DNA of 64,000 nucleotides from Gammaproteobacteria bacterium (GTDB taxonomy: Bacteria > Pseudomonadota > Gammaproteobacteria > Steroidobacterales > GCA-2729495): NCBI GenBank assembly GCA_016874095.1, contig VGVH01000001.1, positions 353,745 through 417,744 of the forward strand, read 5' to 3'. Made by a program: the position numbers and the translations under genes. The notes below the pieces were generated by a model that saw nothing but the letters and a program-made list of their open reading frames with translations, had not been told where the DNA came from and made no database searches. This document shows positions 32,679 to 43,000 of this stretch, piece by piece (position 1 is the first letter of the stretch; each line of letters starts with the position of its first letter).

Positions 32679-34847
32679 TCAGGCTCCGGTGCGCGTGACT
32701 TTCTTGACCATCTTCATGCGGCGGATGCTCTTGATGACGTTCGCCAGGTGCACGCGATCGCGCACGCCGAGGACGAAAATGAGCGCGGCGGAGTCCTCGA
32801 GGTGCTCGTCCACCGATACCTGCTCGATATTCGACCCGGTATCGCCGATGCGGGCGGCCACTTCGGCGAGCACGCCCGGGCGGTTCTCGACGTCGACGCG
32901 GATCTCAAGCGGGAAGTCGCGCTCGATGCCGCTCTCCCACATGACGGGAATCCACTTGTGCGGCTGCTTGCGATACTCGCCGAGATTGCCGCAGGCCGTC
33001 CGGTGGATCACCACGCCGCGACCGGCGCTGAGATATCCCATGATCGGATCGTCAGGGATCGGGTGGCAGCAGCGGGCGTAGCTGACGACGAGCCCCTCCG
33101 TGCCGGCTATGACGATGGGTGTCGGCGTGCCGGTGGTCGCGGCTGAGGCTGTAACCGGTTTCTTCTGCAGCAGTATCTGCGCGATGACCGGGGCCAGCCG
33201 TTCGCCCAGCCCGATCTGTTCGAACAGTTCGCTGGTATTGTCGAGTTGCAGCTCGTCGAGCAGCTTCTTCATCTGCTCTCCGGAGACCTTGCGCAGCGAG
33301 GAGTCGAAATCGCGCAGCGACTGGTCGAGCAACCGCTTGCCGAGATCCCGCGCCTCCCCCTTCTTCATGTCCCTGAGGAAATGGTGGATCGCGGCGCGCG
33401 CCTTTGCGGTCGCTACGAAATTCACCCAGGCCGGATTGGGTCGGGCGCCGCGGGCGGTGACGATCTCGATTGTCTGACCGTTCTGCACCTGGCTGCGCAA
33501 GGGCACGAGGCGCCGGTCGATCTTGGCGGCGACACAGCGGTTGCCGACGTCCGTGTGCACGGCATAGGCGAAGTCGACGCAGGTGGATCCGCGGGGCAAT
33601 CGCAGAATGTCGCCTTTGGGCGTGAACACGTAGACCTTGTCGGGGAACAGGTCGACTTTTACGTGCTCGAGGAATTCCTCCGAATCGGTCGCGACCTGCA
33701 TCTCGTTGATGATCGCCAGCCACTCGCGCGCGCGGGCCTGCGGAGGAACTGCGTCGCGTTCGCTCTGCGGATCCTTGTACAGCCAGTGCGCTGCGATACC
33801 GCTCTCGGCGATGCGGTTCATCTGCTCGGTGCGGATCTGCACCTCGATAGGAATGCCGTTCGGACCGATCAGCACGGTGTGCAGGGACTGGTAGGCGTTG
33901 ACTCGAGGTATCGCGATGTAGTCCTTGAACTTGCCGGGCGAGGGTTTGTAGAGCTGGTGCACGATGCCGAGCACGCGGTAGCAGCTGTCGACGTCCGGCA
34001 GGATCAGTCGGAAGGCGAACACATCGGCGATCTCGCCGAGCGCATGTCCCTTGCGGATCATCTTGCGGTAGATGCTGTAGAGGTTCTTCTTGCGGCCGAG
34101 CACGCGGCAGTCGATGCCGGCTTCCTTGAGCCCCTTCTCCAGCCGGTCCTCGATCCGCGACAGGAATTGGCGCTGGTTGCCCTCGGCGCGGCGCACGGCC
34201 TTGTCGAGCACGCGGTAGCGCAACGGGTAGGCGTGCTTGAAGCCCAGGTCCTCGAGCTGGCTCTTGATCGCGTGGATACCGAGGCGGTTGGCGATCGGTG
34301 CGTATACGTCGAGTGTTTCCCGCGCGATGCGCCGCTTCTTCTCGAGCGCCAGCGCGTCGAGCGTCTGCATGTTGTGCAGCCGGTCAGCGAGCTTGACGAG
34401 GATGACGCGGATGTCCTGCACCATCGCCAGCATCATCTTGCGGAAGCTCTCTGCCTGCGCTTCCGCGCGGCTGGTGAAGGAGAGCTTGTCGAGCTTGCTG
34501 ACGCCATCCACCAGCGCCGCCACATCGGCGCCGAACTTGTCATGGATGTCGGTTCTGGCGGCCGGGGTGTCTTCGATGACGTCGTGGAGCAACGCTGCCG
34601 CTATCGTCTGCCAGTCCATGTGCAGGTCGGCCAGGGTGCTGGCGACGGCAACCGGATGGCTGATGTAGGCCTCGCCGGAGAGGCGCTTCTGGCCTTCGTG
34701 CGCCGCGGCGCTGAACTCGTAGGCCGCGGCGACCTTCTCAACCTGCTCCTCGGGCAGATAACTGAGCCGCGCAATGAGCTGCCGCAGGCCGAAATTCTTC
34801 CGGCCTATCAGTAGCAGTCGATCGAGTATCGCAGCGCCGTAGTCCAT
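32679..34847 (-). CDS. spoT: Bifunctional (p)ppGpp synthetase/hydrolase SpoT
   Basis: 722 residues with the complete RSH layout. The HD hydrolase has SHPVAVASTLADLHMDWQTI and LLHDVIEDT (His-Asp) near residue 90. The synthetase domain (about 235-350) includes FKDYIAIPRVNAYQSLHTVL and IPIEVQIRTEQM. TGS (about 385-445) has VFTPKGDILRLPRGSTCVDF, followed by a helical region and a zinc-finger-like CCHPIPDD. The C-terminal ACT domain has GVLAEVAARIGDTGSNIEQV. The intact HD points to active hydrolysis. The synthetase reads IADVFAFRLIL, as in SpoT, so synthesis is probably weaker than in RelA. It is 51 bp after rpoZ. Confidence 0.96.
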   Translation of the reverse strand: MDYGAAILDRLLLIGRKNFGLRQLIARLSYLPEEQVEKVAAAYEFSAAAHEGQKRLSGEAYISHPVAVASTLADLHMDWQTIAAALLHDVIEDTPAARTDIHDKFGADVAALVDGVSKLDKLSFTSRAEAQAESFRKMMLAMVQDIRVILVKLADRLHNMQTLDALALEKKRRIARETLDVYAPIANRLGIHAIKSQLEDLGFKHAYPLRYRVLDKAVRRAEGNQRQFLSRIEDRLEKGLKEAGIDCRVLGRKKNLYSIYRKMIRKGHALGEIADVFAFRLILPDVDSCYRVLGIVHQLYKPSPGKFKDYIAIPRVNAYQSLHTVLIGPNGIPIEVQIRTEQMNRIAESGIAAHWLYKDPQSERDAVPPQARAREWLAIINEMQVATDSEEFLEHVKVDLFPDKVYVFTPKGDILRLPRGSTCVDFAYAVHTDVGNRCVAAKIDRRLVPLRSQVQNGQTIEIVTARGARPNPAWVNFVATAKARAAIHHFLRDMKKGEARDLGKRLLDQSLRDFDSSLRKVSGEQMKKLLDELQLDNTSELFEQIGLGERLAPVIAQILLQKKPVTASAATTGTPTPIVIAGTEGLVVSYARCCHPIPDDPIMGYLSAGRGVVIHRTACGNLGEYRKQPHKWIPVMWESGIERDFPLEIRVDVENRPGVLAEVAARIGDTGSNIEQVSVDEHLEDSAALIFVLGVRDRVHLANVIKSIRRMKMVKKVTRTGA

Positions 34848-34898: not shown

Positions 34899-35192
34899 TT
34901 ACAGAAGATCCGAGTCGTCGTTCATGTTGATCGGCGGCCCGCCCAGCAGGTCGTTCGCCTGCTCAGCGGCAAAGAGCTCCGCCGGGGTGGGATCTGCCTC
35001 GAGCAGTATCTCCGGCCCGACCAGCCCCGCCGCGATTTCGCGCAGCGCCAGCACCGTCGGCTTGTCGTTCTCCCAGTCGAGATGATTGGGAGCGCCATTG
35101 GCGAGCCGGCGCGCGCGCTTCGCGGCGACCGTTACCAGCTCAAAGATGTTCTCGACGTTGCCCAGGCAGTCTTCAACGGTGATTCTGGCCAT
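34899..35192 (-). CDS. rpoZ: DNA-directed RNA polymerase omega subunit
   Basis: 97 residues starting [20 protein letters not shown]. The conserved core [20 protein letters not shown] and [12 protein letters not shown] is intact (omega consensus R-A-R-x-L-x-x-G, K-x-T-V-x-A-L-R-E-I-x-x-G). Omega aids assembly of the beta-prime subunit and contributes to ppGpp binding, which suits its place just before spoT. In related genomes gmk lies directly upstream. Here it is 138 bp from the ABC ATPase gene and separated from gmk by four genes. Confidence 0.95.
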
Positions 35193-35330: not shown

Positions 35331-36047
35331 TCACGGCTGGATTGTGCGGGCTGAGTCCTCGATGCGCCCGTCGCGAATTCGGATGACGCGGTCCGCTTCC
35401 AGCGCAAAGTCGTCGTCATGCGTGACCATGACGAAGGTCGTTCCTGATTCGCGCGCCAGCGTTCGCATCAGGTCGAAAACCACGCGACCGCTGCGGGTAT
35501 CCAGGTTGCCGGTCGGCTCGTCGGCGAGCACCAGCGCGGGATTGTTCGCCAGGGAGCGTACTACCGCCACGCGCTGCTGCTGGCCGCCCGACAGCTGCGC
35601 GGGGCGGTTTTTCAGCTTGTCGCCCAGTCCGACCAGGTCGAGCAGGTCGCGCATGCGCCGCTCCTGCCCGGCCTGAAATGCCGGGCCCTTGATCCTGCAG
35701 GGCATGAGGGCGTTCTCCAGCACGTCGAACTCGGGCAGGAGATAGTGAAACTGAAATATGAATCCGAGCCGATCGCGACGCATGCCGGCGCGGCCCAGTT
35801 CGTCGAGATTGCCGACCTCGTCTCCCGCGATGTGAACCTTTCCCGCGCTGGGCCGGTCGAGCAGGCCCATGATGTTCAGCAAGGTCGTCTTGCCGGAACC
35901 GCTGCCGCCGACGATCGCAACGAATTCGCCACAATTGACGCGAAACGAGACATCGAAGAGGACCGGCGTTTCCACCCCGGCGCTGACGTAGGTCTTGCTG
36001 ACCCCGGCGAGTTCGATGACCGGGGGTCCGTTGCCGGTGCGCTGCAT
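35331..36047 (-). CDS. ABC transporter ATP-binding protein (MacB/LolD-like)
   Basis: The ATG at 36047 overlaps the permease stop (TGATG) and gives 238 residues; the longer track ORF is a frame shadow. Walker A is VGGSGSGKTTLLNIMGLLDR, the signature QLSGGQQQRVAVVRSLANNP, Walker B ALVLADEPTGNLDTRSGRVV, and the switch His is in FVMVTHDDDFALEADRVIRI. FIFQFHYLLPEFDVLENALM is the Q-loop in the form typical of the MacB/LolD/FtsE group, whose transporters move or extract substrates at the periplasmic side. It energises the FtsX-like permease encoded upstream, with the HlyD-like adaptor. It is the last gene of the four-gene module. Confidence 0.93.
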   Translation of the reverse strand: MQRTGNGPPVIELAGVSKTYVSAGVETPVLFDVSFRVNCGEFVAIVGGSGSGKTTLLNIMGLLDRPSAGKVHIAGDEVGNLDELGRAGMRRDRLGFIFQFHYLLPEFDVLENALMPCRIKGPAFQAGQERRMRDLLDLVGLGDKLKNRPAQLSGGQQQRVAVVRSLANNPALVLADEPTGNLDTRSGRVVFDLMRTLARESGTTFVMVTHDDDFALEADRVIRIRDGRIEDSARTIQP

Positions 36048-37297
36048 CAGCTGCCCCTGATGACCTGCATGGGGTCGATGCCGCCCGCCCGGCGCGCCGG
36101 GAAGAATGCAGCCACGACCCCGACGGTGATCGCCACGCCGGCAGCGCCGGCAAGCAGCCACGGATCAATCTGAATGTTGAAGACAGGCGTCAGGCGTCCG
36201 CCCGGCCCCGGCGCGCGAACGTTGGAGAGCATTTCCAGCATGCCGATACCTGCAGGTATGCCGACAGCACATCCGAGCAACGCCAGCAGGAAGCCCTCGA
36301 CGACGAAGATCGACTGGATTTCGACCGGTGTGGCGCCCATCGCTTTCAGGATGCCGATCTCGCGGTACTTGCCGGTGACGGACATGATGAGAATGCTCGC
36401 GATGCCGAAGCCGGCGGCGACGATGGTGGAGATCAGCACCATGTTGATGGTCTGGTCCTGGGCGCCCAGGGTGCGGAAAACGTTCGGGTTGTCCTCGATC
36501 CACGATCGCGCCCGAAATGGCATCGAAACGGCGAGCGCCCGCGCCGTTACTTCCGCCTGGTAGAAATCGCGTATGCGAACGCCGATGCTGCTGATGGCGC
36601 TGCCGAGTTCGAGCAGCGACTGCGCATCGCGCAGGGTGAGGAAGACCTGTCCGTCATCGAGTTGGCCGGAGCCCGTCTCGTAGATGCCGGCGACAGTAAC
36701 TGACAGCGCCTGCCCGCCCGGGCCGATCAGTCGCAGCTTGTCGCGCATGCGGATGCCGAAATCCCGCGCGAGGCGGGTGCCGATGACGACATCGCCGGTA
36801 ACCATCTGCAGGAAGTTACCTTCGAGCAGATTCTCCTCGACGCTGACGATACGGTCGTGCCGTTCCGCCAATACGCCGGTGGCGCGCACGGACTCCCGTC
36901 GCGCGCCGCGGAACAGGAACGCATTGCCGGTTGCAACTGGCGAAACCACCGTGATTTCCGGATCGGCTTCGAGTGCCGGCAGCCACTGGCGCCAGTCGTC
37001 GATGCTGTCGATGCCGCGTGGCAAGTTCACGGTTTCGCCGACGTACAGCGGAGCACCCGGTCCGGCCGGCAGCCGCCATGCCCCAACTGGTGTGCGTTCG
37101 GCAGGCTCGAGCACGATGTGCGGGATGCTGCCGGTGACATTGCCGACAATGGAGCGCTGTGTCCCGCCGATCGTGGTTCTGAGGTACACGATCAGCAGGA
37201 CGCTGATCGCAACCACGCCGATCGTGAGCAGCGACTGCCCGACGCCGTACCGCAAGTGGCGCAGCGCAACCGACAGCGTGAAGAAGCTGAGCTTCAC
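36047..37297 (-). CDS. ABC transporter permease, FtsX/MacB-like
   Basis: A GTG at 37297 overlaps the adaptor stop (GTGA) and opens VKLSFFTLSVALRHLRYGVG, giving 416 residues. The topology is one N-terminal helix (about 18-40), a large periplasmic domain (MacB_PCD-like, about 45-265), then three C-terminal helices (about 290-315, 335-365, 380-400), as in FtsX/LolC/MacB permeases. SVTGKYREIGILKAMGATPV is the coupling helix that meets the ATPase. The ATPase is a separate gene, unlike true MacB. With an HlyD-type adaptor it forms a tripartite export system of the DevBCA/MacAB general kind. The substrate is unknown. Confidence 0.9.
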   Translation of the reverse strand: MKLSFFTLSVALRHLRYGVGQSLLTIGVVAISVLLIVYLRTTIGGTQRSIVGNVTGSIPHIVLEPAERTPVGAWRLPAGPGAPLYVGETVNLPRGIDSIDDWRQWLPALEADPEITVVSPVATGNAFLFRGARRESVRATGVLAERHDRIVSVEENLLEGNFLQMVTGDVVIGTRLARDFGIRMRDKLRLIGPGGQALSVTVAGIYETGSGQLDDGQVFLTLRDAQSLLELGSAISSIGVRIRDFYQAEVTARALAVSMPFRARSWIEDNPNVFRTLGAQDQTINMVLISTIVAAGFGIASILIMSVTGKYREIGILKAMGATPVEIQSIFVVEGFLLALLGCAVGIPAGIGMLEMLSNVRAPGPGGRLTPVFNIQIDPWLLAGAAGVAITVGVVAAFFPARRAGGIDPMQVIRGS

Positions 37298-38412
37298 GGA
37301 CGGCCTGCTGCCTCGGTGCCGGCAATCGCTCGGGCGCGCTGCCCGGGCCGGCCGCGGCGCGCTTCCCGGAGAACTTCGGTGTCCGCCGCAAGTCCGTCGA
37401 CGGCGACCCACTCGGGATTTCGACCGAGCACACTGACCGGTTGCGGCGCGACTCTGCCGTCAATGAGCGCCAGTACGCGGGGCGTTCCATCGAAAAGCAC
37501 CGCACGGGCAGGCAGGGCCAATCCACCCGTCGTGCGCCGAACCTCGATGTTCACGTCGACCGTCATGTTGGGCAGCACGAAATCAGGCAGGTTTTCCGAG
37601 CGCAGCCGCAGGCCGACGACTCCGCGGTCGCTGTCCACGTTGGGTCCGACCTGCACCAGCCTGGCGTTGAAAGGATTTTCCGGATAGGCCGGCGCAACGG
37701 CGATCGCCGGTTGACCGACGGCGAGCCTGCCGAGATTGTTCTCGTCCGTCTCCACGTAGATCTCGGTTGCCGACATCTCGGCGACAGTGAACCAGGCCGT
37801 CGTGGCCGAAACCGTCGTACCCGGCTCGACCATGCGCTCGATGACGACGCCATCGAACGGCGCGCGTACCTCGCGCTTGCCGAACTCCGGCCGGATCTTG
37901 TCGACCTCAGCTCGTGCTTCCTCGAGCCGGGCCCGGGACGCGTCTGTGCGCGCACGCTGCACGCGCTCCGCGGCTTCTGCGGCGTCCAGCTCCGCCACCG
38001 GCACGAGCTTGCGATCGGCGAGTTCGCTGGCCCGGCGCAGTTCCCGCACGTCGTTGTCCAACTGCGACTCCTCCCCCCGAAGGTCAGTCTGCGCAGCACG
38101 GAGCGACGCGAGCGCGCCAGCGAGGCGGGCATCGGTCTCGCCCAGCCGGACCCGGCCAAGCAACTGTCCCGCTTGCACCAGGTCCCCCTCGGTGACCTCG
38201 ACGCTTTCGACCACGCCCGGGGCCTCGGCGCCTACCATGCCCTGGCGAACGGCGCGCAGCTTGCCGCTGGCCACCACGACCTCCACCACATCACGTCGCT
38301 CCGGGGTCACCACGACGACTGGCTCCGGGCGCAATGCCAACCAGATCAATGCCAAAACAGAAAGGGCAGCGCCAGCGATCCAGGGGAGCCGTTGCCGCGT
38401 GACCATCATCAT
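37294..38412 (-). CDS. HlyD/MacA-like periplasmic adaptor protein
   Basis: 372 residues. There is an N-terminal membrane anchor (about 8-27, LPWIAGAALSVLALIWLALR) and a lipoyl/barrel-sandwich domain split by a coiled-coil hairpin (about 85-170: LAGALASLRAAQTDLRGEES to RARLEEARAEVDKIRPEFGK). Beta-barrel and membrane-proximal domains follow (KREVRAPFDGVVIERMVEPG, then LVQVGPNVDSDRGVVGLRLR). It would connect the permease to an outer-membrane channel; no TolC-like gene lies nearby. The start overlaps the B12-binding gene's stop (ATGA), so sensor and exporter are translationally coupled. Confidence 0.92.
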   Translation of the reverse strand: MMMVTRQRLPWIAGAALSVLALIWLALRPEPVVVVTPERRDVVEVVVASGKLRAVRQGMVGAEAPGVVESVEVTEGDLVQAGQLLGRVRLGETDARLAGALASLRAAQTDLRGEESQLDNDVRELRRASELADRKLVPVAELDAAEAAERVQRARTDASRARLEEARAEVDKIRPEFGKREVRAPFDGVVIERMVEPGTTVSATTAWFTVAEMSATEIYVETDENNLGRLAVGQPAIAVAPAYPENPFNARLVQVGPNVDSDRGVVGLRLRSENLPDFVLPNMTVDVNIEVRRTTGGLALPARAVLFDGTPRVLALIDGRVAPQPVSVLGRNPEWVAVDGLAADTEVLREARRGRPGQRARAIAGTEAAGRP

Positions 38413-39137
38413 TCAGGGCGATCTCCTTGCGGTAGTTTTCCTGCAAGCTCGTTGAATTCATCGAGGCTTGAAATGACAGAGGTTTGCGCGGGCAGGTCTG
38501 ACGTCGCCATTTCAAGCGCCTCGCGCCCGCCGACCCAGAGATGCGTGCCGGCAGGCATCGCGGCGCGCAGGTCGGCGAGTTGCCGCCGCGCATCGATGAC
38601 GCCAGCACTGGTCACGATGCTAACGGCAACCGCCGCAACACGTACGCTCGCGCAGAACCGTCCAATCTCCTGTGCCGGGAGATCGGGTCCGAGGTAGATC
38701 GCCTGGATGCCCTCGCTGGCGGCGAGAACCGCCAGCATCAAGCAACCGAGTTCGTGACGTTCGCCGGAAAGCGTGGTGAAGGCGATCCGCGGTCCGGAGG
38801 CACGGCGGTTGTGTTCATCCAGCGCGGTGTGAAGCTGGCGGCGAACGGCTCCGGTGAGCAGGTGCTCCTGCACGATGGACAACTCGCCGCGCTCCCAACG
38901 GTCCCCGACCTCGGTCAACACGGGCGCAAACACTTCCCGCACCATCACCAGGGGTGCCAGCGCCTCCCGGGCGCCAATAGCCCAGCGATCCTGGTCCGCC
39001 ACTTCCCAGGCGGAGGTGGCCTCAAGCAGCCGGTCGACGTAATCGGCCGGGCTGCTCGGGGTGGGCGAGGACGGCGGGCTTGTCACCCCGGGTATTTCGC
39101 CGGGGGCGCCGGTTCGGTTTTCAGGTGGCTGGCGCAT
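38409..39137 (-). CDS. CarH-like cobalamin-binding (B12 photoreceptor-type) protein lacking a DNA-binding domain
   Basis: 242 residues. Residues 1-30 are a Pro/Ser/Thr-rich tail. About 31-110 form a helical cap of the B12_binding_2 type with GDRWERGELSIVQEHLLTGA: Trp81, nine residues, Glu91-His92. This is the W-x9-EH motif that contacts the adenosyl group in CarH/LitR photoreceptors. About 116-235 form a Rossmann B12-binding domain with SGERHELGCLMLAVLAASEG (His128 as lower ligand, in the same GERHE-hG form as Thermus CarH), AIYLGPDLPAQEIGRF and a late VGG loop. The N-terminal MerR helix-turn-helix of CarH is absent, and only 19 bp separate it from gmk, leaving no room for one. It probably acts through a partner protein, as AerR does in purple bacteria. 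Confidence 0.85.
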   Translation of the reverse strand: MRQPPENRTGAPGEIPGVTSPPSSPTPSSPADYVDRLLEATSAWEVADQDRWAIGAREALAPLVMVREVFAPVLTEVGDRWERGELSIVQEHLLTGAVRRQLHTALDEHNRRASGPRIAFTTLSGERHELGCLMLAVLAASEGIQAIYLGPDLPAQEIGRFCASVRVAAVAVSIVTSAGVIDARRQLADLRAAMPAGTHLWVGGREALEMATSDLPAQTSVISSLDEFNELAGKLPQGDRPE

Positions 39138-39156: not shown

Positions 39157-39780
39157 TCAGCCTCTGCAGATGGCGGCGAGCCGACCGCGCAGCGCGGGAT
39201 CGGTAGTGCGGTTCGCCCCGCCCTGGCCTGCCACCACGGCCTGCAGCTCGGCGAGCGCCGTCTCGACGGCCTCGTTCACAACGACGTAGTCGAATTCGCT
39301 CCAGCGGGCCATGTCGTCGCGCGCTTCGGACAACCGCCGCGCGATGACCTCCTCGCCGTCGGAGCCGCGGCCGCGAAGGCGCCGCCCCAGCTCCGCGAAG
39401 GATGGCGGCATGATGAAGATGAGCACGCTCGACGGCATGGCTACGCGCACCTGGCGGGCCCCCTGCCAGTCGATGTCGAGGAGTACGTTTGTCCCTGCCT
39501 CCGTGTGCGCCTCGATCTGTGCACGGCCGGTGCCGTAGTAATTGTCGAAGACGCGCGCGTGCTCGAGCAGCTCCCCGCCCGCGATCATTCGTTCGAAGCG
39601 GGCGTGGTCGACGAAGAAGTAGTCCTTGCCGTCCTGTTCACCGGCCCGCGGCCTGCGTGTCGTGAACGACACCGAGAACCGCAGCGCCGGATCCCCGGCC
39701 AACAATCGCTTCGTCAGCGTCGTCTTCCCAGCGCCGGATGGGGCGGTGAGGACGAAGAGCTTGCCGCAAATGGGGGTCAC
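39157..39780 (-). CDS. gmk: Guanylate kinase
   Basis: 207 residues. The P-loop is KLFVLTAPSGAGKTTLTKRL. FSVSFTTRRPRAGEQDGKDY is the GMP-binding segment, and VLLDIDWQGARQVRVAMPSS and IMPPSFAELGRRLRGRGSD complete the fold. It phosphorylates GMP to GDP. It lies 18 bp behind yicC and is followed by the B12-binding gene instead of rpoZ. The last residues (AICRG) include no obvious extension. Confidence 0.96.
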   Translation of the reverse strand: MTPICGKLFVLTAPSGAGKTTLTKRLLAGDPALRFSVSFTTRRPRAGEQDGKDYFFVDHARFERMIAGGELLEHARVFDNYYGTGRAQIEAHTEAGTNVLLDIDWQGARQVRVAMPSSVLIFIMPPSFAELGRRLRGRGSDGEEVIARRLSEARDDMARWSEFDYVVVNEAVETALAELQAVVAGQGGANRTTDPALRGRLAAICRG

Positions 39781-39798: not shown

Positions 39799-40686
39799 CT
39801 ACTCGACGTTCTGCACCTGCTCGCGCATCTGCTCGATCAGCACCTTCAGATCCACCGCGTGGCGCGTGGTCTCGGCGTCGGCTGACTTGGAGGCGAGGGT
39901 GTTGGCTTCGCGGTTGAACTCCTGGAGCAGGAAGTCGAGGCGGCGGCCAGCGGCTTCGTCGTGCTTTTTCATGGCGGCGCGGAACTCGGTGACGTGACCT
40001 TCCAGCCGGTCGAGTTCCTCGGCGACGTCGAGTTTCTGGGCGATGAGGGCGAGTTCCTGCTCCAGCCGGTCGTTATCGACGGTGGCGACCAGTGACTTCA
40101 CCCGTTCTGTCAGGCGCTCGCGGATCGCGGTGAGTACCGCGGGCAGGCGAGCGCGGACCGCGGCGACACGGACGAGGATCTCGGCGCAGCGCGATTCGAG
40201 CAGCTCCTGGAGTCTTGCCCCCTCGCGGCCCCGGCTCGCGTTCAGCTGGGCGACGGCCGCCTCGAGTGTCTCGAGCGCCAGGCCGTGCAGAGTCTCGACT
40301 TTTGTTTCCTCTTCGTGGAGGACTCCGGGCCAGCGGAGGATGTCCACGGGATCGATCGGCGCAACGGTGCTGCCGGATCCGGCGATCAGCTTCTGCAGCG
40401 AGTTGGCATGATCGATGACTTCGCGCGCGAACGCCTGGTTCAGGCGCGCATGCAGTTGCCGTTCGCCGGAGGAACGCAGATTCAGGCTCGCGTCCAGCTT
40501 GCCGCGTTTGACAAGCCGGCCTATCAGGGCGCGCGCGTCGGTCTCGATCGCGCGGAACCCTTCGGGCAGCTTTACCTGCGCCTCGAGATAGCGGTGGTTC
40601 ACCGAGCGCAGCTCCCAGGCCAGCTGGCCGAGAGCGGTAGCGTTTTCGGTGCGGGCGAAGCCCGTCATGCTGCGGATCGTTGCCAT
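39799..40686 (-). CDS. yicC: YicC-family endoribonuclease-like protein
   Basis: The real start is the ATG at 40686 (MATIRSMTGFARTENATALG) behind AGGA, giving 295 residues. The 878-residue track ORF that includes it is an artefact reading through the PP2C and rph genes. MTGFAR at the start and the C-terminal TLASKSADAETTRHAVDLKV, LIEQMREQVQNVE are the YicC (DUF1732) signatures. Family members have been linked to RNA cleavage and stationary-phase survival. yicC next to gmk is a common arrangement. It is divergent from the PP2C gene; the 192 bp between them should hold both promoters. Confidence 0.94.
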   Translation of the reverse strand: MATIRSMTGFARTENATALGQLAWELRSVNHRYLEAQVKLPEGFRAIETDARALIGRLVKRGKLDASLNLRSSGERQLHARLNQAFAREVIDHANSLQKLIAGSGSTVAPIDPVDILRWPGVLHEEETKVETLHGLALETLEAAVAQLNASRGREGARLQELLESRCAEILVRVAAVRARLPAVLTAIRERLTERVKSLVATVDNDRLEQELALIAQKLDVAEELDRLEGHVTEFRAAMKKHDEAAGRRLDFLLQEFNREANTLASKSADAETTRHAVDLKVLIEQMREQVQNVE

Positions 40687-40878
40687 AACTTCCTGCTCTG
40701 GATTACTGCACCGGCCTGTGACCGCCGCCCGCGCCGGGCCGGCCGGTTCTCGCGATAATGGCCGGTGCGCAGGGTTCTCCTGCGCCGTAGACTCTTGGCC
40801 CGTCACGCTGGCGGAATTGCCGCTGACGGTCAAGCTGAAAATCGGCCCGTCGCCGGCGTCGAACCGGGGAGCAGCGAG

Positions 40879-41619
40879 TTGAAGGTCGAGTGTGCAGAGC
40901 TGAGCCTCATCGGCGGCCGCAAGGAGAACCAGGATCGCGTCGCCGTCGCGCGCGCCGATGACTCGGTACTCCTTATCGCCGTCGACGGCATGGGCGGCCA
41001 CGCCGGCGGCGCCCGCGCTGCGGCCGTTGCAGTGGAGACCATCGGCGACTCTTTCCGTCGCGCCACCGCGCCGCTGTTCGATCCGCTGGGGTTTTTGCAC
41101 CTGACGGTCGGCAGGGCCCATGTCCGCATCGCCCAGCTCGGCGTGGGCGTCAAGATGGAAGACCGGCCGCGCGCGACCTGCGCCATCTGCCTCGTCCAGG
41201 ACGGCACGGCCTTCTTCGCTCACGTCGGCGACAGCCGTATCTATCACCTGCGCGAACGCGCTATCCACGACCGGACGCGCGACCACAGCCATGTCGAGCT
41301 GCTCCTGCAGGAGGGCCTCATCACCGAGGCCGAGATTCCCGACCATCCGATGCGCAATTTCGTGGAGTGCTGTCTTGGCGGCAGCTACGCCCTGCCAGGT
41401 ATGACGGTCGGCTCCGCCCGGCGCCTTTCCCCGGGCGACCTCGTGATGGTCTGCACGGACGGTTTCTGGTCCGGGCTGGACGACGCCGACGTCGCCACTT
41501 TCGGTGCCGGCGGCGAACCGGTCGACATTTCCCTGCGGCGGCTGGCCGAACAGGCCGTGCGCAACAGCGGTCCTTACAGCGACAATACCTCGGCGGCCGG
41601 CCTGCGCTGGCTGGGCTGA
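40879..41619 (+). CDS. PP2C-family serine/threonine protein phosphatase
   Basis: The track ORF starts upstream without a ribosome site. A TTG at 40879 lies 7 bases behind GGGGAG and begins just before the catalytic domain (LKVECAELSLIGGRKENQDR), giving 246 residues. Metal and phosphate motifs are GGRKENQDR, LIAVDGMGGHAGGARAAAV, FFAHVGDSRIYHLRERAI, VMVCTDGFWSGLDDADVATF and the terminal SDNTSAAGLRW. It is a single-domain Mn/Mg-dependent phosphatase without membrane segments. No partner kinase (Hanks type) is nearby. It lies 39 bp upstream of rph. Confidence 0.88.
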   Translation: MKVECAELSLIGGRKENQDRVAVARADDSVLLIAVDGMGGHAGGARAAAVAVETIGDSFRRATAPLFDPLGFLHLTVGRAHVRIAQLGVGVKMEDRPRATCAICLVQDGTAFFAHVGDSRIYHLRERAIHDRTRDHSHVELLLQEGLITEAEIPDHPMRNFVECCLGGSYALPGMTVGSARRLSPGDLVMVCTDGFWSGLDDADVATFGAGGEPVDISLRRLAEQAVRNSGPYSDNTSAAGLRWLG

Positions 41620-41658
41620 CCGATCAGGCCGCACAACGTCCGACGCCGCGAGGTTTCT

Positions 41659-42396
41659 ATGCAACGTCCCAGTGCGCGCAGCCCCGATGAGCTGCGCCAG
41701 ATCCGATTCGAAACGGGCTACACCCGGCATGCCGAAGGGTCGGTGCTCGCAGTCTCCGGCGACACGCGCGTGCTCTGCACGGCCAGTGTCGAGGAAGGCG
41801 TGCCGTCGTTCCTTCGCGGCAAGTCGCAGGGATGGATCACGGCCGAGTACGGCATGCTTCCCCGCGCTACGCACACCCGCAGCGCACGCGAGGCAGCACA
41901 GGGCCGGCAGTCCGGCCGTACGCAGGAAATACAGCGGCTGATCGGCCGGTCGTTGCGTGCCACAATCGATCTCAAGGCGCTTGGCGAGATGACGGTTACG
42001 CTCGACTGCGACGTCCTGCAGGCTGACGGCGGAACGCGCACTGCTGCGATTTCGGGCAGCTGGGTTGCCCTCGTCCTCGCGATCGATCGGCTGGTCCGCG
42101 CAGGCAGCCTGCGCCGCAATCCGTTGCACGGCCAGGTCGCCGCGGTTTCCGTTGGCATCTATCGCGGTGTGCCGGTGCTCGACCTGGACTACGCTGAGGA
42201 TGGCGAAGCCGAGACCGACATGAACGTCGTCATGAACGATGCCGGCGCCTTCATCGAAATCCAGGGCACCGCCGAAGGCCATGCCTTCCAGCGTCAGGAG
42301 CTCGATCGCCTGCTCGACCTTGCCGCCGCCGGTGTACGTGGGATCATGCAGGCGCAGACGGCTGCTGTGGACACCTGGCGGGCGACTGCCCGCTGA
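41659..42396 (+). CDS. rph: Ribonuclease PH
   Basis: 245 residues. [20 protein letters not shown] is the usual opening. Further family marks are [40 protein letters not shown] with its phosphate-binding Arg, [40 protein letters not shown] and [20 protein letters not shown]. It removes nucleotides from tRNA 3' ends using phosphate. It is followed 7 bp later by rdgB, a standard pairing. Confidence 0.97.
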
Positions 42397-42403
42397 CACT
42401 GCG

Positions 42404-43000
42404 ATGATCAGGCGCATGGTTCTCGCCACTGGCAACGCCGGAAAGGCGCGCGAGATCCAGGCGATACTGGGCGCGGGCTACGAGGTGCTGCTGCAATCAG
42501 CTCTCGGCGTCGAGTCGGTCGAGGAGACCGGCCTGACCTTCGAGGAGAACGCGCTGCTGAAGGCGCGGTATGCCTCGGCTGCGACCGGGCTGCCTGCGCT
42601 TGCCGACGATTCCGGCCTGGAGGTCGATGCCCTGCAGGGCGCACCGGGTGTCCGATCGGCACGCTACGCCGGTGCCGACGCCACCGACGGACAGAACGTC
42701 CAGCGACTGCTTGATGCCATGGCCGCGGTACCTGACGGTCACCGGCAGGCCCGTTTCCGCTGCGCAGTTGCCTGGGTGCGATCCGCCGACGATCCCCAGC
42801 CGTTGCTCGCGACTGGCGCCTGGGAGGGCAGCATCGCCCACGAGCCCCGCGGGACGCTCGGTTTCGGTTACGACCCGGTTTTCATCGACCAGGAGTCCGG
42901 TTGCAGCGCGGCTGAGATGCCGCCCGGCCAGAAGAATCGCCTGAGCCATCGCGGCCAGGCGTTGCGTGCGCTGGTCGGGATGCTGGCGCCGTGGGGCTGA
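42404..43000 (+). CDS. rdgB: XTP/dITP diphosphatase RdgB (HAM1 family)
   Basis: From the ATG at 42404 it has 198 residues (MIRRMVLATGNAGKAREIQA); a second ATG four codons later is possible. VLATGNAGKAREI is the phosphate-binding opening. Family marks follow: ETGLTFEENALLKARYASAA, LADDSGLEVDALQGAPGVRS, GTLGFGYDPVFIDQESGCSA and KNRLSHRGQALRAL. It hydrolyses non-canonical purine triphosphates (dITP, XTP) before they enter DNA or RNA. In many gammaproteobacteria hemW follows; here it does not. Confidence 0.96.
   Translation: MIRRMVLATGNAGKAREIQAILGAGYEVLLQSALGVESVEETGLTFEENALLKARYASAATGLPALADDSGLEVDALQGAPGVRSARYAGADATDGQNVQRLLDAMAAVPDGHRQARFRCAVAWVRSADDPQPLLATGAWEGSIAHEPRGTLGFGYDPVFIDQESGCSAAEMPPGQKNRLSHRGQALRALVGMLAPWG

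Follow-up and report, generated by a model that had tools for sequence, protein, structure and literature searches.

The window, the whole 64,000-nucleotide stretch of DNA that was analysed, encodes a 242-residue protein that is, by profile, PDB sequence search, AlphaFold and Foldseek, a CarH-type cobalamin module, and this MerR-less module of the class-I CarH/LitR group has quite possibly become an accessory protein dedicated to an ABC exporter, responsive to adenosylcobalamin (AdoCbl) or light. Its gene is the first of a four-gene cassette, followed by those of the adaptor, the permease and the ATPase (Table 1). Judged by sequence, the cassette protein is a real, conserved relative of the CarH/AerR kind. 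B12 photoreceptors are familiar as transcription factors (CarH), co-regulators (AerR) and enzyme regulators (photocobilins); the sequences described here suggest that the target of control by light or by vitamin B12 status may in this case be a pump and not a gene. If this is true, B12 light sensing would extend to membrane transport, and the 242-residue protein provides a small, naturally occurring CarH B12 domain for which a candidate partner suggests itself. No paper linking a CarH-type B12 module to an exporter was found in the open-licence literature searched.

Table 1. Features of the window, of the 242-residue protein and of related loci
Feature	Position	Strand	Remarks
Stand-alone CarH-type cobalamin-binding protein, 242 aa	38409..39137	-	motifs, profiles, PDB matches, AlphaFold
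Disordered N-tail of the B12 protein	residues 1-29
Helical cap with W81-x9-E91-H92	residues 30-112
Rossmann domain with E126-x-H128-x2-G131	residues 117-235
HlyD/RND_mfp (MacA-like) periplasmic adaptor	37294..38412	-	start codon overlaps B12 gene stop by 4 nt
FtsX/MacB_PCD-type ABC permease	36047..37297	-	closest solved structures LolF/LolE, then MacB
ABC transporter ATPase, 238 aa	35331..36047	-
gmk (guanylate kinase)	39157..39780	-	upstream of B12 gene in window genome only; outside conserved cassette
rpoZ (RNA polymerase omega)	34899..35192	-	downstream flank of cassette
spoT	32679-34847		frames cassette with rpoZ and gmk
Carotenoid genes of source genome	G000:C10, locus L155 6700-10297	-
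Cassette site kind 1: gmk/rpoZ	window
Cassette site kind 2: lipB	G035, G038, G039
Cassette site kind 3: Rieske oxygenases	G032, G001
Cassette site kind 4: folE and ECF sigma factor	G003
Cassette site kind 5: nitrilase-like/trypsin/photolyase region	G016, G028, G037, G023

A stand-alone CarH-type module and its ligand residues

The B12 gene starts with ATG. Its product matched Pfam B12-binding_2 with 41 bits, above the cut-off, and B12-binding with 29.2 bits, just below the cut-off of 32.1. The top NCBIfam match was CarH (90 bits, E=1.5e-25), a score far below the equivalog cut-off of 400 bits, which was set for the full-length protein. CarH was found at 2.7e-24 in a family-profile search, and phmmer against PDB sequences matched Thermus CarH at E=3.7e-19, compared with 0.017 for AerR (7te2). 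AlphaFold, supplied with an 11-row alignment, predicted four helices (30-112) followed by the Rossmann domain, with a pLDDT of 88.7 and a pTM of 0.81, and the top Foldseek matches of the model were structures of the Thermus CarH B12 domain (E ~1e-11, TMt ~0.82). The preliminary description of this DNA had assigned the protein to the CarH type and proposed superposition on CarH; profile, PDB sequence and fold all bear the assignment out.

Both CarH signature motifs published in PMC8156234 are present in the protein: W-x9-EH lies at residues 81-92, and ExHx2Gx41SxV/Tx22-27GG is formed by E126, H128, G131, S173, V175 and G203-G204, with spacings of x41 and x27. The previously named GERHELG with H128 and the stretch AIYLGPDLPAQEIG were likewise read in the protein. 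Neither Pfam nor AlphaFold revealed a further domain, such as a globin-like one, within the 242 residues. When the window was searched by tblastn with a MerR domain, nothing better than E=0.1 was obtained, in agreement with the earlier statement that the domain is absent and not merely missed; no cobalamin riboswitch or other Rfam RNA was found in the window either. A MerR domain split off as a separate upstream gene is ruled out, as none is encoded nearby in the window or at the orthologue loci. The protein is not a CarH, because it has no MerR domain. It likely works like the B12 module of CarH, as fold and motifs indicate, and it is likely to bind AdoCbl, while its light output is uncertain.

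Alignment with the PDB sequence paired W81, E91, H92 and H128 with W131, E141, H142 and H177 of Thermus CarH, and R127, D152 and G143 with R176, D201 and G192. W81, E91, G125, E126, H128, E129, G131, G143 and D152 are invariant in the window protein and its ten orthologues (11/11), R127 is kept in 10/11, and H92 in 9/11, the remaining two having Arg. The expectation that W81, E91, H92 and H128 would persist in homologues was thus correct for the Trp, the Glu and the lower His, but not for H92. In Thermus CarH the adenosyl group is held by W131 and E141 and the dimer by R176-D201, and after light His132 takes the place of the upper ligand, which couples photolysis to disassembly (PMC10442372). 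The position of His132 is occupied by Glu82 in the window protein, by Glu in one orthologue (G001), by Gln in three and by His in six of the 11. Given that the Thermus H132A protein is mostly still tetrameric after light (PMC10442372), the light output of the Glu82 protein could be weak or different. The adjacent His is common in CarH but not universal (PMC9304148), and the B12 domain of Thermus CarH is light-responsive even in isolation (PMC10442372). The earlier claim that the kept residues are those that make cobalamin light-responsive therefore stands for W81, E91 and H128, but has to be withdrawn at the His132 position and, in two orthologues, at H92. Thermus G160, a dimer-dimer contact, is not clearly kept, and no tetramer is therefore predicted.

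Orthologues and loss of the MerR domain

A search of 99 related genomes yielded ten close orthologues, 46-54% identical, all from two genera (g1 and g8) of the family to which the window belongs; with the window protein, the 11 come from 8/8 g8 genomes and 3/10 g1 genomes. In an alignment-based scan of named genomes the hosts were mostly gammaproteobacterial metagenome bins, one of them titled Baikal-deep; a single-protein query had given nothing in these genomes, and the alignment query recovered the orthologues. Across 369 genomes of the class, the profile gave 347-374 bits for the 11 and 192 bits or less for all else.

None of the 11 carries MerR, consistent absence in homologues having been named beforehand as a check, and the nearest outgroups all carry it. 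An RxWExR-type MerR domain is found in the above-threshold matches outside the family and in the more distant named matches, and that of G049 was confirmed by Pfam. No stand-alone form was detected outside the family in the 369 class genomes, where all such matches at E<=1e-25 contain MerR. In a tree built from 53 B12 modules, with the photocobilin-like proteins, a separate clade, as the root, the 11 orthologues make up one clade (support 99/97) inside the MerR-bearing CarH/LitR group, arguing that MerR was lost once. On this phylogeny, the stand-alone form is the product of a single real domain loss, MerR having been dropped once from CarH/LitR. The dN/dS values were 0.16-0.40 in the pairs tested, with distant pairs near saturation, and by this measure the orthologues are under purifying selection. 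That the protein is a functionless, decaying CarH remnant, as the lost output domain and the patchy occurrence in g1 (3/10) might suggest, is nearly refuted by dN/dS well below 1, the lack of stops, ligand residues invariant across ~50% divergence and the conserved operon.

Linkage to an ABC exporter and the cell background

The adaptor gene directly follows the B12 gene in 11/11 cases, and so do the permease and ATPase genes wherever the contig reaches; an ATGA stop/start overlap joins the B12 and adaptor genes in about 10/11. The cassette occupies five kinds of genomic site among the 11. The permease (E<=1e-40) was detected in 10 of the 40 family genomes, all ten of which have the B12 gene; in the eleventh (G001) the B12 gene is present and the contig ends inside the adaptor. 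In G039 the contig with the B12 gene ends with the start of the permease, most of which is on another contig, and at loci L034 and L040 the B12 and permease genes were placed by tblastn and genome search. The linked genomes belong to two genera with shared ancestry, and the cassette counts are not independent trials. No B12 gene was found beside 18 distant exporters (permease 25-36% identical) in the stretch fetched.

At none of the five kinds of site does the cassette have a transcription factor as a constant companion. Neither a corrinoid methyltransferase nor an activase was found linked to it at the loci examined, and a crude look with a few short motifs found none shared upstream of the cassettes. 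Light-gene neighbours occur only at some sites (G003, G016, G028). At L036 385-7951 of G003, the cassette lies beside genes for a CMAS methyltransferase, a SnoaL-like protein, an FAD/amine oxidoreductase, DUF1365, a photocobilin-like protein, an ECF sigma factor and folE, and this cluster resembles the light-induced gene sets of Pseudomonas described in PMC9758184.

In the window the cassette sits within a housekeeping gmk-rpoZ-spoT run, and since the B12 gene lies 19 bp behind gmk, the cassette may be read with the housekeeping genes. The preliminary description had the limits of the B12 reading frame and the 19-bp gap right and left the minus strand ungiven; it missed the ABC exporter, whose adaptor gene shares 4 nt with the B12 gene and which is a more telling neighbour than gmk. 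A meaningful linkage to gmk was rejected, gmk adjoining the B12 gene in the window genome only. Farther upstream, a minus-strand ORF (39799-42435) spans yicC (about 39802-40722) and continues into sequence antisense to a PP2C-like phosphatase ORF on the plus strand (40765-41619); beyond yicC it is probably no gene.

The source genome has a cobalamin adenosyltransferase, and its genes for phytoene synthase, a CrtI-like oxidoreductase and lycopene cyclase (crtB/crtI/crtY-type) stand side by side. No MerR-B12 protein or full-length CarH/LitR was found in this genome, none of its three MerR-domain matches having a B12 module, and a photolyase gave no match. It encodes a second B12 protein of 363 aa, bearing NxHDxG (G000:C21, locus L042 4558-5649, minus strand), which matches photocobilin structures in two stretches; the gene lies ~1.2 kb from folE (GTP cyclohydrolase I, L042 6856-7593), and relatives of the protein are spread over the family.

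Mode of action and comparison with known systems

The B12 gene moves together with the exporter genes and is coupled to them in translation, and for this reason we think that the protein more probably acts on the exporter directly, or nearly so, than through an unlinked transcription factor; linkage and coupling do not in themselves prove physical contact. In the mechanism that we infer, from AdoCbl binding and light response to partner, direction of regulation and substrate, AdoCbl would be bound between the helical cap and the Rossmann domain, as conserved residues and fold suggest, with H128 as the lower ligand and W81 and E91 holding the adenosyl group. In the dark, the AdoCbl-loaded protein would tend to form a head-to-tail dimer, the Thermus pair R176/D201 being retained as R127/D152. 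Once AdoCbl is photolysed or lost, the cap and the oligomeric state would change, and with them the contact made with a partner. The likeliest partner is the exporter that is made along with the protein, contacted on its cytosolic side, and export would then track light or AdoCbl status. A stand-alone photocobilin, also a B12 photoreceptor, regulates an enzyme by contact (PMC10979010). That the CarH photosensor domain, without its DNA-binding half, switches the ABC efflux pump directly by contact under the control of light or AdoCbl is possible, if on the doubtful side. In E. coli, protoporphyrin is exported by MacAB-TolC, and mutants of this exporter are photosensitive (PMC4263509), so that a phototoxic tetrapyrrole is, by analogy, a reasonable guess for the substrate; the permease is nearer to LolE/LolF than to MacB, and lipids or lipoproteins are therefore equally open.

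It is rather unlikely that the protein is instead an AerR-like co-regulator, an AdoCbl photoreceptor binding an unlinked transcription factor or a sigma/anti-sigma pair and thereby controlling the operon of the exporter and possibly carotenoid genes as well. AerR is a MerR-less B12 photoreceptor that acts on CrtJ (PMC6199135, PMC9144470), and the G003 cassette adjoins folE, the ECF sigma factor, the photocobilin-like gene and CMAS/DUF1365/FAD-oxidoreductase genes, which are of the light-induced kind in Pseudomonas (PMC9758184); however, AerR was matched only at E=0.017, no transcription factor accompanies the cassette at any kind of site, and a gene 19 bp behind gmk may be read with housekeeping genes. 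The earlier proposal of action "like AerR with CrtJ" is thus an analogy alone, the constant partner being an ABC exporter.

We consider it unlikely that the protein senses AdoCbl status or redox state and makes no use of light in the cell, the holo/apo ratio or the cobalt oxidation state setting exporter activity or assembly. The ligand-switch His is absent in 5/11, including the window protein (E82), H92 is lost in two orthologues, and one member comes from the Baikal-deep bin; on the other hand, the residues by which CarH holds the adenosyl group (the Trp, the Glu and the lower His) are invariant, the source genome is carotenogenic, and any AdoCbl protein is chemically light-sensitive. A role as corrinoid carrier or chaperone, in which the protein would deliver a corrinoid to an enzyme or supply the exporter with it as cargo, is very unlikely. 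Methyltransferase systems do use stand-alone B12 modules as corrinoid proteins, and MtgC and MtbC gave weak matches, but these reached 31.5 and 26.3 bits against cut-offs of 370 and 350, far below CarH, so that the protein is not placed with the methyltransferase corrinoid proteins, a placement named earlier as one that would speak against the CarH type; moreover, ExHExG and W-x9-E(H/R) are CarH-type motifs, and no corrinoid methyltransferase or activase is linked.

Like MacAB/LolCDE-type exporters, the proposed partner consists of an adaptor, an FtsX-type permease and an ATPase, but its permease is only 25-36% identical to the sampled relatives, which have no leading B12 gene. The proposed accessory protein shares with CarH/class I LitR of Thermus thermophilus and Myxococcus xanthus the B12 module fold, Wx9EH, ExHx2G-x41-SxV-x27-GG, the R/D dimer-interface pair (R127/D152) and Gly at the G192 position; it differs in lacking MerR, in having Glu for His132, in not clearly keeping Gly160, and in being linked to an ABC exporter instead of a crt operon. 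The MerR-less B12 architecture is that of AerR/PpaA of Rhodobacter, and AerR acts through protein contact, whereas its partner is CrtJ/PpsR and its setting photosynthesis. The photocobilins (SasPcob, AbDPcob) have a globin-like biliverdin domain that is absent from the 242-residue protein, yet they too are stand-alone AdoCbl modules, and they work through protein contacts.
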